A stretch of DNA of 27,055 bases from a virus: IMG/VR virus record IMGVR_UViG_3300027714_000098, positions 1 through 27,055 of that record. One strand, given 5' to 3'. The position numbers were made by a program, and so were the translations under genes. Shown piece after piece: positions 8,681 through 13,219 of this stretch; position 1 is the first letter of the stretch, and the number at the start of each line of letters is the position of its first letter. The notes under the pieces were generated by a model. That model searched no databases. It was not told where the DNA came from and worked only from the letters and a program-made list of their open reading frames with translations.

Positions 8681-11600
8681 TCAAAACGTTATTTTACTAA
8701 AGTCTTTATGGGTGTTAATCTCAAATAATCCATCTGCTGCATCTTTCAAGGCATCTAAATGGGATATGACCAAAATGAATTCAAACTCAGATTTTAGATA
8801 TTCAAAAAGCATAAACATACTATTAAGATTGTCAGAATCTAAATTACCAAAACCTTCATCGATAGCTAAAAAATTAGGTCTTGGCAGATTAGATACATTT
8901 ATAAGAGCAACTCTAATTGCCAATGAAGATATGAATTTTTCCATACCAGAAGTCATTTCCAATGGCCAAAGGCTTTTATCATACTTGATATAAGTTAGTA
9001 TATTTTTACCATCAGTTTCGAAGCTAATGGTGAATTCTACTATCTGAGATAATGTCTCATTCACGGCTTCCTCTATGTACGGTAGAGCATCAGATATCAG
9101 TTCATAAGGTATACCATCTCTCTTGATAGATTCTAAATAATACTCATAAGCCTTCAATCTATTTTCTAAATCATTAGCTTTTTCTATAGAACCATTGATA
9201 GCTTCTATTTTTGATTTTGCAAGATTTATATTCGAATAATTTTCCAATAATTTAGATTCCACGCCATCTAATATATTTTCCGATTCTAATTTTTCACTTT
9301 CTAATATATGTATGGCATCTTGGGTTTTTCTATTGAAAGATATGATCTTTTCATTTTTATGATAAGATTCTATATTGGATTTTATAGTTGAAAGTTTTTC
9401 TACATTATAATCACGCTCACTTTCTTTATTTTTTATATTCAACAATAGATTTTTTTGATCTGCCCCAAGATCTCTCAATTTTAAACCCAATTGATCAAGA
9501 TCGTCTTTTTGATCTATATATGATTTTAAAGCTGTCGATTTATTACCATAATGTTCAACGTCTTTGATATACGAATCTGCTTGTTTGCGATCTTCAGGGA
9601 GTTCCAATTTTGCTTTTTCAGCTTGTTTAACAAACTCATTATTGATGCAGTGCTCACAATCTGGATCGTATAAATGGGTAGATAATTTAGAAACCAGTTT
9701 TAGCTTTTGTTTAACTACAGCTTTTAATTTGTCTAAATCTATTTCCCGTGAAGATTTTTCATCTAGACATTTATAATATTCAGTAACTTTTTCATCTATC
9801 AAAATGGAATCAAAACTAACTAATTGACTATTCAAAGTTAAATATTCAGACTTGTTATTACCACTCTTTACATTAAGATTTGAAACATTCAGATCAGCCT
9901 TTGCTATCATATCAATGACTATAGTTTCACTAGATTCTAAAGCTTTAATATCCCAGTCTTTAGTATCAGATTTTATTTTTTTAGTAAGGCTTATAATATC
10001 ATCAGATAGTTTTTTGATTTGTTTTTTCAAACTTAATTTGTTTGCTTTAACTATTTTGATTTCTGATGTGTGATGATTGTAAACCTCTGTTGCATCTATT
10101 AATTGTACATCATAATCTGTTTTTTTGAAGTCTCTAAGTAACACTTGGACATCTCGAATCTCTTCATTAGCTACCTGATACAGTTCCTCAAAAACGGTTA
10201 TATCCATAAATTGAGCTAAGAGATCTTTTCGTTCTGTCTGGGATTTATTTATGAAGCCTATCCCATCATTTTGTACAGAAAGGGAAGTTAATTCAAAATC
10301 CTCATAGGTGCCGACATAGCCTCTAATATTTTTATTAGTTTCACGTCTTTGTTCACCATTCAAAGATATTATGGAATTATCTTCACCGACCATAGAAAAA
10401 TCAACATCAACCCTAACATTGGACTTGCCACTTTTTACTCTTTTGGCTTTCCTTTCTATAAAATAATCTACACCATCTATTTCAAAGGTGAGTTTACATT
10501 TAAAGTCCAAACATTTATTATTCATAATATCTTCGGCTTTTTTTGTTCTACTACACTTATCAAACAAACAGAAAGCTATAGAATCTAAAATAGCAGATTT
10601 ACCTGAATGGTTAGCTGCGAATAAACCCATCAAGCCTTTAACATTTTTAAAATCTATCACGTTGTCTGAACCGTAACTAAACATATTATCAAACTCAAAC
10701 TTCTTTGGCTTCCATGAAATATTTCTAGATATTTCTACAGGAGGAAGTCCTGCGTTTAAAGATCTGTTGAGATTTTTTATTCGAGATTGCATTTCAGGAT
10801 CTAAAGTGTAATTTCTAGATATATAATCATCCAATAATTCATTCTGATATTCGATGTCCCGAACATCCTTCAATAAAGCCTTAGCGATTTTATTATTTGA
10901 AGATCCTTTCACCTTGTCTGTTTTAATAATCATAGCATCAGAGAAACTGGACTGCTTACGGATTTGCAACATCAGACTTTTAAGTTCTGCCTCGGTAGTA
11001 TTACTAGTTCGTATTCTTAATCTTGGAAACCTAGGAATGTCTTTAATGCTAGGAAGCTGCCCATCATTAATATCAACGGTATAGAACCCATAATCATTAT
11101 TGATATGAGTAAAGCTGCTAGACAAGTCCCTAAGGTCCCAAATAGTATAGCCATGGTTTTCATATGATTCTCCGAAATTTTGCTGGATTAAACTACCAGG
11201 ATAATGTATGGTTTTATTAGTATCTAGATATTGATGTTTATGGATATCTCCCAATAAGACCATATCATAATTACTAAACATTTTTACAGAATAATTTTCA
11301 TTACGCACTTTGAAGCCTGCATCGGTCATGGATGAATCTACTGCACCATGGAATAAAGCCACCTTTAGTTTATCATCAGGAATGTCCCTTGCAAGGATAT
11401 AGTTTTCTTGATCGTCTGCGATATCAAAAACAGAGAATTGGACATCAGCAATTTCATAAACCATAGTCTTATCTAAATACCAAAGGTTCGGATGATTCAG
11501 TGAATCGTATATGGGTTTAAGAGCATCCATTCTATTTTTATTATTGAGGTTCATATCATGATTTCCCCTGATGAAAATAGTAGGTCTTTTATTTGCTAAC

Positions 11601-11833
11601 GATATAAGAAACTCACGGGTCAGATCTATTAATTCAGGAGACATATCTATTTTATTATGTACTATGTCCCCAGCAATATAAACTAATGAGTTTGCAGGTA
11701 GCTTGTCGACTGCTTTATATAGTTGATCGAAGACAGATCTATATTCAGTATGCCTCTTATAATTCCGGATATGTATATCTGCAATATGCAATATCTTTTC
11801 AATTTTATCAAAGCCTATATCAATTTTTTGCAT
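8681..11833 (-). CDS. Fused SbcD-SbcC (gp47-gp46) recombination nuclease/ATPase
   Basis: A 1050-aa single-chain version of the T4 gp47/gp46 pair (bacterial SbcD/SbcC, Mre11/Rad50). It should process DNA ends in recombination-dependent replication. Residues 1-250 are a metallophosphoesterase: D19-x-H21, G55-D56-x-x-H59, G90-N91-H92-D93, H162-G163 and G195-D196-x-H198-x-H200. From about 375 the Rad50-type ATPase begins: Walker A AANHSGKS (406-413), Q-loop Q521, zinc-hook C726-x-x-C729 between two coiled-coil arms, signature T961-S962-G963, Walker B FLAIDEGF (988-995), D-loop at 996-1000 and H-loop H1025. No stop or frame change interrupts the chain. In T4 and most bacteria these are two genes. 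The first Walker A Gly is Ala. It overlaps the primase gene by 14 nt and has no good Shine-Dalgarno, which implies coupling. Confidence 0.93.
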   Translation of the reverse strand: MQKIDIGFDKIEKILHIADIHIRNYKRHTEYRSVFDQLYKAVDKLPANSLVYIAGDIVHNKIDMSPELIDLTREFLISLANKRPTIFIRGNHDMNLNNKNRMDALKPIYDSLNHPNLWYLDKTMVYEIADVQFSVFDIADDQENYILARDIPDDKLKVALFHGAVDSSMTDAGFKVRNENYSVKMFSNYDMVLLGDIHKHQYLDTNKTIHYPGSLIQQNFGESYENHGYTIWDLRDLSSSFTHINNDYGFYTVDINDGQLPSIKDIPRFPRLRIRTSNTTEAELKSLMLQIRKQSSFSDAMIIKTDKVKGSSNNKIAKALLKDVRDIEYQNELLDDYISRNYTLDPEMQSRIKNLNRSLNAGLPPVEISRNISWKPKKFEFDNMFSYGSDNVIDFKNVKGLMGLFAANHSGKSAILDSIAFCLFDKCSRTKKAEDIMNNKCLDFKCKLTFEIDGVDYFIERKAKRVKSGKSNVRVDVDFSMVGEDNSIISLNGEQRRETNKNIRGYVGTYEDFELTSLSVQNDGIGFINKSQTERKDLLAQFMDITVFEELYQVANEEIRDVQVLLRDFKKTDYDVQLIDATEVYNHHTSEIKIVKANKLSLKKQIKKLSDDIISLTKKIKSDTKDWDIKALESSETIVIDMIAKADLNVSNLNVKSGNNKSEYLTLNSQLVSFDSILIDEKVTEYYKCLDEKSSREIDLDKLKAVVKQKLKLVSKLSTHLYDPDCEHCINNEFVKQAEKAKLELPEDRKQADSYIKDVEHYGNKSTALKSYIDQKDDLDQLGLKLRDLGADQKNLLLNIKNKESERDYNVEKLSTIKSNIESYHKNEKIISFNRKTQDAIHILESEKLESENILDGVESKLLENYSNINLAKSKIEAINGSIEKANDLENRLKAYEYYLESIKRDGIPYELISDALPYIEEAVNETLSQIVEFTISFETDGKNILTYIKYDKSLWPLEMTSGMEKFISSLAIRVALINVSNLPRPNFLAIDEGFGNLDSDNLNSMFMLFEYLKSEFEFILVISHLDALKDAADGLFEINTHKDFSKITF

Positions 11834-12737
11834 ACAATTTATATTCCATTAATTTACTGAAGGTTAAAGGTTTGGATTCTTCTATCATTTCTAAGATTTT
11901 ATTACGACCTAATTCACTAGGATCGGATTGCTCCATTTCTATCAAATGTACAATTATATTATTATCCATAAAATATGCTGCATGCTCTAAAGCCTTGGTC
12001 CTTGCATCTGCATCCAATAGTAAGTTTATCCGAGAGACTCTTGATTGCAAAATTTTATGTTTTAGTGCGTTCTGGATTAATTTACCAAAAAGAGGGATTG
12101 CATTCTCACCGACGGCTAAGGCATCGAAAGGACCCTCAACGATATTAACAGGTTCATTCCAATTAACTAGTAAATCATAACCGATAATATCTTTTGAAAC
12201 TTGAGGGTTTTTATGCTTGAAGCTAACGTCGTAAAAAGATCTAGCAGTAAAATAATTGAGTTCTCCATTGGCATCGTAACTAGGTACGATAATCATCCCA
12301 CCATACTCACCAGACTCACAATAACCAATAGAATATCTTAAGATATCATACTTCTTAATGCCTCTATTTTTTAAATATCGAACTGCATTTCTATAATCAG
12401 GACTCTTCATATTGCCATCAAGGATCGGTATATATTCTAGAGGTAGTGAAAGTAATTGTTGGTATTTAGTAAATGATCTAGTATCTATATCACCTACTAA
12501 TTTACCAAGCTCCTTTATCTTATTATATGAAGCGCCAATACTTTTTAAGATATTTACTAGTTTACGACCCTTCTTACCACAGACCCAACATTGCCACTTT
12601 TGATTTATAGTATTTACAGAAAGTTTAGGTTTTGGATGGTGACAGTAAGGACAACTAAACCATACATCGCCGTTGGTTTTATCTAAACCACGACCTAATA
12701 CGGACTCTAGCAATTTCTTAATTTGTACTTTTATCAT
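11820..12737 (-). CDS. DNA primase, CHC2-type zinc finger plus Toprim, 305 aa
   Basis: Makes RNA primers for lagging-strand synthesis, the role of T4 gp61. A four-Cys zinc ribbon (C29-x2-C32 ... C50-x2-C53, with CPYC and CWVC) binds template DNA; the usual His of the CHC2 form is replaced by Cys. The RNA-polymerase core follows with GMIIVPSYDANGELNYFTARS (147-167, in two parts). The Toprim motifs are E201 in IVEGPFDAL and D242-x-D244 in LLLDADA, which bind metal. Length is close to gp61 (about 340 aa), and there is no helicase domain, so a separate helicase is expected elsewhere. The start has no Shine-Dalgarno. The 3' end overlaps the nuclease-ATPase gene by 14 nt, so both replication and recombination functions are probably made together. 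Confidence 0.92.
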   Translation of the reverse strand: MIKVQIKKLLESVLGRGLDKTNGDVWFSCPYCHHPKPKLSVNTINQKWQCWVCGKKGRKLVNILKSIGASYNKIKELGKLVGDIDTRSFTKYQQLLSLPLEYIPILDGNMKSPDYRNAVRYLKNRGIKKYDILRYSIGYCESGEYGGMIIVPSYDANGELNYFTARSFYDVSFKHKNPQVSKDIIGYDLLVNWNEPVNIVEGPFDALAVGENAIPLFGKLIQNALKHKILQSRVSRINLLLDADARTKALEHAAYFMDNNIIVHLIEMEQSDPSELGRNKILEMIEESKPLTFSKLMEYKLYAKN

Positions 12738-12772: not shown

Positions 12773-13219
12773 TTATTTTGGGAGTTTTGTTTCTAAAATA
12801 AGCTCTTTAGATTTGTCTGTGAATTTAACCGAAACGAACTTTCGACTACCTACACAATCATTATAATAATCTGATCTAATCATAACATCAGACTTGTGTT
12901 GGATATTCTCCTCCATATAATTGACTTGACCTTTAGTCTCTCCGAGAAATAAAATTTCAAACTTGAATTTTGATATGTCGAATTTTTCTATGTCTGCAGT
13001 TACAGTTTTAGAGCTACCGACATAAGAACGCCAGTCAGATTCTTTACGTACAATCTTGCGTCGTGTTTTGCCCTTGACCTTTACACGTCTTGAGGTACCG
13101 AAGTATTTCCGACCGATATATTTTCTACCATTAATAGTATTGGTAATTAAATAAACAAAACCGAAAAAGCCTTCAGGAACATCTCTAAGATATTTTCCTT
13201 TATATTTCCAATGGCTCAT
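12773..13219 (-). CDS. GIY-YIG-like endonuclease, 148 aa
   Basis: The N-terminus has a GIY-YIG-type motif pair, FVYLITNTINGRKYIGRKYF (13-residue spacing of VYL and YIG), then a basic loop (KVKGKTRRKIVRKESDW) and SYVGSS. A candidate catalytic Glu lies in NYMEENIQ, and a Tyr/Asn-rich YYND follows. It is shorter than typical homing nucleases of the Seg family and has no obvious DNA-binding extension. My recollection is that similar small GIY-YIG-like genes are common in T4-like marine phages. It might cut DNA, act as a degenerate homing nuclease, or have a host-DNA role. The start overlaps the 268-aa gene (TAATG), and its 3' end is 35 nt before the primase. Confidence 0.75.
   Translation of the reverse strand: MSHWKYKGKYLRDVPEGFFGFVYLITNTINGRKYIGRKYFGTSRRVKVKGKTRRKIVRKESDWRSYVGSSKTVTADIEKFDISKFKFEILFLGETKGQVNYMEENIQHKSDVMIRSDYYNDCVGSRKFVSVKFTDKSKELILETKLPK

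Follow-up and report, generated by a model that had tools for sequence, protein, structure and literature searches.

The window, as the term is used here, is the whole 27,055-nucleotide stretch of the virus record IMGVR_UViG_3300027714_000098 (positions 1 to 27,055). Its minus strand carries a gene in which the two subunits of the Mre11-Rad50 (SbcD-SbcC) complex are joined in one polypeptide, and the surrounding genes that match Pfam or PHROG models are a primase, a GIY-YIG endonuclease and baseplate genes. The features are as follows:

8681..11833, minus strand: fused Mre11/SbcD-Rad50/SbcC gene (P0001), 1050 aa in a single ORF (Pfam, PHROG, NCBIfam)
10922..11803, minus strand: Mre11/SbcD nuclease and capping domain, residues 11-304 (VIA-align; ligand invariance in 53 rows)
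10751..10855, minus strand: Rad50-binding helix-loop-helix, residues 327-361 (AlphaFold2 helices 327-341 and 346-361)
10718..10750, minus strand: linker joining the two halves, residues 362-372 (AlphaFold2; near-constant junction length)
8684..10714, minus strand: Rad50/SbcC part, residues 374-1050 (VIA-align to E. coli SbcC)
9647..9658, minus strand: zinc hook C726-x-x-C729 (invariant in 53/53)
11820..12737, minus strand: DnaG-type primase, 305 aa, directly upstream of the fusion gene with a 14-base overlap
12773..13219, minus strand: SegE-type GIY-YIG endonuclease, upstream of the primase (PF19835, E 8e-32)

The fused gene runs from an ATG at 11833 to a stop at 8681 through 1050 uninterrupted codons, and the plus strand of the same interval is dense in stops. 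A first-pass annotation had described one unbroken SbcD-SbcC chain of 1050 residues at 8681-11833: the chain is borne out and the coordinates are right, with the gene lying on the minus strand. Both subunits are recognised in the one protein. Pfam finds a calcineurin-like phosphoesterase (Metallophos, residues 13-199, E 1.2e-12), AAA_23 (382-621, E 2.3e-11) and, more weakly, the SbcC Walker B region (961-1011); PHROG finds the SbcD-like phrog_100 (13-353, E 2e-35) and the SbcC-like phrog_77 (375-1048, E 5e-39); and phmmer against the PDB matches SbcC/Rad50 and SbcD/Mre11 chains. The NCBIfam models of the canonical proteins score below their curated cut-offs (TIGR00618, SbcC, 56 versus 478.5 bits; TIGR00619, SbcD, 45.7 versus 77.65 bits), so the fusion is a divergent, non-canonical member.

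In many phages the gp47 and gp46 genes adjoin in this same order, so that a lost stop could merge them, and the single frame might then be an assembly or sequencing artefact. The chance of this is negligible. A search through 2.9 million viral contigs (IMG/VR) turned up relatives in 490 stretches. Of the 80 loci retained, 78, in separate assemblies, hold one full-length fusion ORF of at least 1000 aa, and the two that do not (L009 and L010) are cut by contig ends. Residues 340-380 of the window protein contain neither a stop nor a frameshift, and the joined frame is unbroken, with a near-fixed junction, in those 78 relatives and in cultured phages as well. The modelled junction passes from helix to linker to strand, with Rad50 starting at its native residue 1. 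The same fusion in many separate assemblies rules out an assembly artefact, and the fusion in IMGVR_UViG_3300027714_000098 is genuine, intact and conserved.

The nuclease half retains the SbcD fold. Residues 10/11-303/304 of the model align with SbcD of E. coli (4lty_B, Z 23.8) and of S. aureus (7dog_A, Z 23.9), and the ligands D19, D56, N91, H92, H162, D196 and H198 are invariant in an alignment of 53 fusions that reaches down to 22% identity. The metallophosphoesterase motifs had been placed from D19-x-H21 to H200. D19 stands; H200 does not, since position 200 is His in 12 of the 53 and the ligand pair of motif V is D196-x-H198, in which Asp replaces the usual His. The same replacement is found at Asp242 of Mimivirus R555 (PMC3175470). 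His21 is replaced by Gln in 11 of the 53 sequences, which form one branch (L011, L013, L014, L015, L016, L022, L027, L028, L077, L087 and L089, with the motif I sequence DIQIRN). All other nuclease ligands are retained there, and the branch may have either an altered metal site or a lowered nuclease activity. With an Asp (D196) at the usual His position of motif V, and H21Q in a sister group, nuclease activity is not to be assumed.

The ATPase half is likewise complete. Residue 374 of the model pairs with residue 1 of E. coli SbcC (7yzo_D, Z 31.3, 3.3 Å over 350 residues); with SbcC aligned from its native first residue and the SbcD fold at 10-304, both proteins are kept essentially whole in the fusion. 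The Rad50-type ATPase and hook of the first-pass annotation hold up: Walker A (A-A-N-H-S-G-K-S, 406-413), the signature (962-965), Walker B (D992-E993), the D-loop and H1025 are all present, and N408, G411, K412, S962, G963, E965, D992, E993 and H1025 are invariant in the 53 fusions. The ABC signature is SGME, not SGGE. The hook is flanked by coiled-coil arms of ∼165 residues each (model helices 547-718 and 733-903). SMC-like ATPases of this build also occur in defence systems: the PADLOC LmuB model matches residues 389-1020 (E 4e-21) and LmuB is among the PDB matches, which could make the protein a Lamassu-type ATPase with a fused nuclease effector rather than a repair nuclease. In Lamassu systems LmuB is accompanied by an LmuA effector and LmuC. 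The Lamassu reading is highly improbable, as LmuB itself resembles Rad50, SbcC/Rad50 chains give the top matches among solved structures, the fused nuclease has an SbcD fold complete with capping domain, and in phages the gene is firmly linked to a primase.

The two halves meet in a short and tightly constrained segment. AlphaFold2, run on the single chain with the 53-row alignment, gives a mean pLDDT of 82 and a pTM of 0.43, so that the individual domains are reliable and the relative placement of the halves is not fixed. The model has a linker of 11 residues (362-372) followed by Rad50 strand 1 (373-382), and its helix-loop-helix occupies the position of the Mre11 helix-loop-helix site in the T. 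maritima complex (PMC3175470). Across the alignment the junction (355-381) is 27 residues long in 51 of 53 fusions and 28 in the other two, while the lengths of other domains are more variable. This near-fixed length is the strongest sign that the fused state is under selection. It also favours a single folded unit over a gene that yields, besides the fusion, a separate Rad50 product made from an internal start or by proteolytic cleavage close to the junction. Start-type codons do lie at 348, 384 and 392, with M384 invariant throughout the close family. M384, however, sits inside the first ATPase region, where a start would lose strand 1, and Shine-Dalgarno-like sites are absent before 348, 384 and 392 in the window and in ten relatives (a weak test, as real starts lack one too). 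A free Rad50 product is distinctly unlikely.

The first-pass annotation had implied that the fusion is rare and proposed a search for it in phage proteins; the search found many, in 78 of the 80 IMG/VR loci and in cultured phages, and the novelty falls away, the same fusion being common in aquatic phages and published in 2011. It is widespread in aquatic phages and present in cultured phages of Microcystis, Listeria, Rhizobium and Tenacibaculum, where annotated records carry it unremarked (Microcystis phage Mel-JY01, Rhizobium phage RHph_TM30, Listeria phage LMTA-57 and Tenacibaculum phage pT24). Annotation often names one half only (‘AAA domain protein’, ‘SbcD-like’, ‘metallophosphoesterase’), and fusions are readily overlooked. 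In 11 of 12 fusion-bearing records checked, a strong phrog_77 match is given by the fusion alone or by nothing (pT24). A scan of 84,980 cellular species genomes gave only four loci, each on a short MAG contig, and the one read in detail (L086) bears phage-type genes; no plasmid relatives of the fusion protein were found in PLSDB.

Two huge-phage records show variations on the gene. The 735-kb LR756501.1 (around 670999-672753 and 278537-282130) has a fused SbcDC and an additional, separate SbcC-like locus, and the matched stretch of the SbcC-like locus holds stops (one TAG, three TAA). In the 484-kb phage LR756508.1 (L002:6701-7618) a 305-aa ORF sits directly behind GDIHKRQ and splits the fusion gene, leaving the two gene parts as separate ORFs. 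The inserted ORF has Cys-rich repeats and matches a TnsA-like nuclease weakly. The arrangement resembles a homing-type insertion into the most conserved motif; a self-splicing intron was rejected, as Rfam gave no credible match even at a relaxed threshold.

The primase (phrog_47, E 6e-37; Zn_ribbon_DnaG, E 5e-5, below its Pfam cut-off) stands upstream of the fusion in all close relatives with sufficient upstream DNA, and mostly overlaps or adjoins it. The GIY-YIG gene has an equivalent place in L006-L008 and in Mel-JY01; its protein matches phrog_447, whose label ‘NAD synthetase’ is probably wrong. At 31 of 84 loci with more than 1800 bases upstream, its place is taken by a relative of an L086 ORF (L086:2583-2990) that we take, by eye, to resemble T7 endonuclease I. 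The alternation of the two before the primase, with GIY-YIG in the branch of the window and in Mel-JY01 and the other ORF in many other branches, is possibly a swap of junction-cutting nucleases. On ocean scaffolds, R555 homologues adjoin phage primases and T7-type gp3 endonucleases (PMC3175470). The primase ORF of L010 (L010:2254-3663) has 470 aa, its central part seemingly repeated, which may be an assembly error in a short contig. A Shine-Dalgarno-like sequence is absent at both the fusion start (11833) and the primase start (12737), perhaps a sign of a Bacteroidota-type host.

Mre11-Rad50 complexes are built as a dimer of chains with the Mre11 active sites between the heads, are closed by ATP and tether through their hooks. 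The 1050-aa protein is very probably a phage version of this end-processing nuclease, with a helix-loop-helix docked in cis and a role in replication and repair alongside the primase; its enzyme activity is a prediction from conserved motifs. Two chains would dimerise through their Mre11 parts and their ATP-bound Rad50 heads, the zinc hook could tether DNA, and the helix-loop-helix (327-361) of each chain would dock on the coiled-coil root of its own Rad50. The overall machine would then keep the canonical M2R2 form, each half being covalently joined. By analogy with T4 gp46/gp47, the likely job is DNA-end processing and bridging for recombination-dependent replication and repair; the recombination-dependent role is inferred from these T4 proteins together with the primase linkage. 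The fusion would be co-expressed with the adjacent primase, and the two probably act jointly.

How such a dimer and its active sites are arranged had been raised as a question by the first-pass annotation, and a proposal published in 2011 already addresses it. The Mre11 C-terminus of the T. maritima complex lies ∼28 Å from the Rad50 N-terminus, a distance bridged by a linker of 9-12 residues (PMC3175470). The modelled fusion shares with the R555 type a helix-loop-helix (327-361) followed by a linker in this range; with 11 residues available for the published 9-12, docking in cis is the simplest arrangement. It is unlikely that the short linker instead forces a non-standard arrangement, such as helix-loop-helix exchange between chains or a nuclease gate that is locked. 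If it did, the phage family would possess a natural single-chain machine regulated in a way of its own, with an altered metal site in the H21Q branch.

Fusions of Mre11 and Rad50 were described in 2011 by Yoshida, Claverie and Ogata in Mimivirus (R555), a Bacillus phage (0305phi8-36), plasmids and eukaryotes, and R555 homologues were abundant in aquatic viral metagenomes (PMC3175470). No later follow-up on phages was found in the open-access literature. The phage fusion belongs to this published class and is a known kind, not a discovery. In a tree of six unfused phage pairs and 28 fusions (R555 and cellular canonical pairs left out), LMTA-57 falls beside the unfused Twort and Goe3, and the window fusion groups with fusions of uncultured phages and pT24. 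A constraint that puts every fusion into a single clade is rejected (p-AU 0.0005, with long branches as a caveat), so fusion arose, or was undone, more than once, in agreement with the 2011 proposal (PMC3175470). Separate phage origins, one of them lying within unfused Herelleviridae pairs, provide independent evolutionary evidence that the Mre11 C-terminus adjoins the Rad50 N-terminus. Fusions fix the nuclease-to-ATPase ratio and drop one assembly step, which makes them handy single-gene models for structural work on Mre11-Rad50.

Among known systems, the R555 type shares with the phage fusion nuclease and ATPase in one chain, with Mre11 N-terminal and Rad50 C-terminal, the capping domain and helix-loop-helix kept, a short linker, the motif V Asp (Asp242 and D196), occurrence in aquatic viral metagenomes and phage primase neighbours. 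It differs in belonging to a giant virus rather than a tailed phage and in its length, 1351 aa against 1050 aa with a shorter coiled coil. Among viral proteins, the top structural matches over the full length are the fused DNA-repair proteins of the giant viruses Tupanvirus, Yasminevirus and Harvfovirus, at ∼20-24% identity, with pT24 and LMTA-57 lower. Microcystis phage Mel-JY01 has a full-length fusion of 1066 aa (WWT39521.1, 40% identity), and its upstream primase and GIY-YIG genes follow the gene order of the window; there, however, a small ORF separates primase from fusion, and the label ‘AAA domain containing protein’ covers the ATPase half only. The recombination exonuclease of Listeria phage LMTA-57 (1009 aa) also joins SbcD and SbcC in one chain, but is of separate origin, grouping with the unfused Twort and Goe3 pairs, and keeps the canonical GHxH motif V. 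T4 gp47/gp46 and E. coli SbcD/SbcC share the domain folds, motifs, order and presumed function of the fusion, but each pair is two separate polypeptides; the contrast drawn with T4 in the first-pass annotation is sound, as T4-like, Twort-like, Thalassa and Moorella phages all encode SbcD and SbcC as separate proteins, whereas the window encodes them in one ORF.
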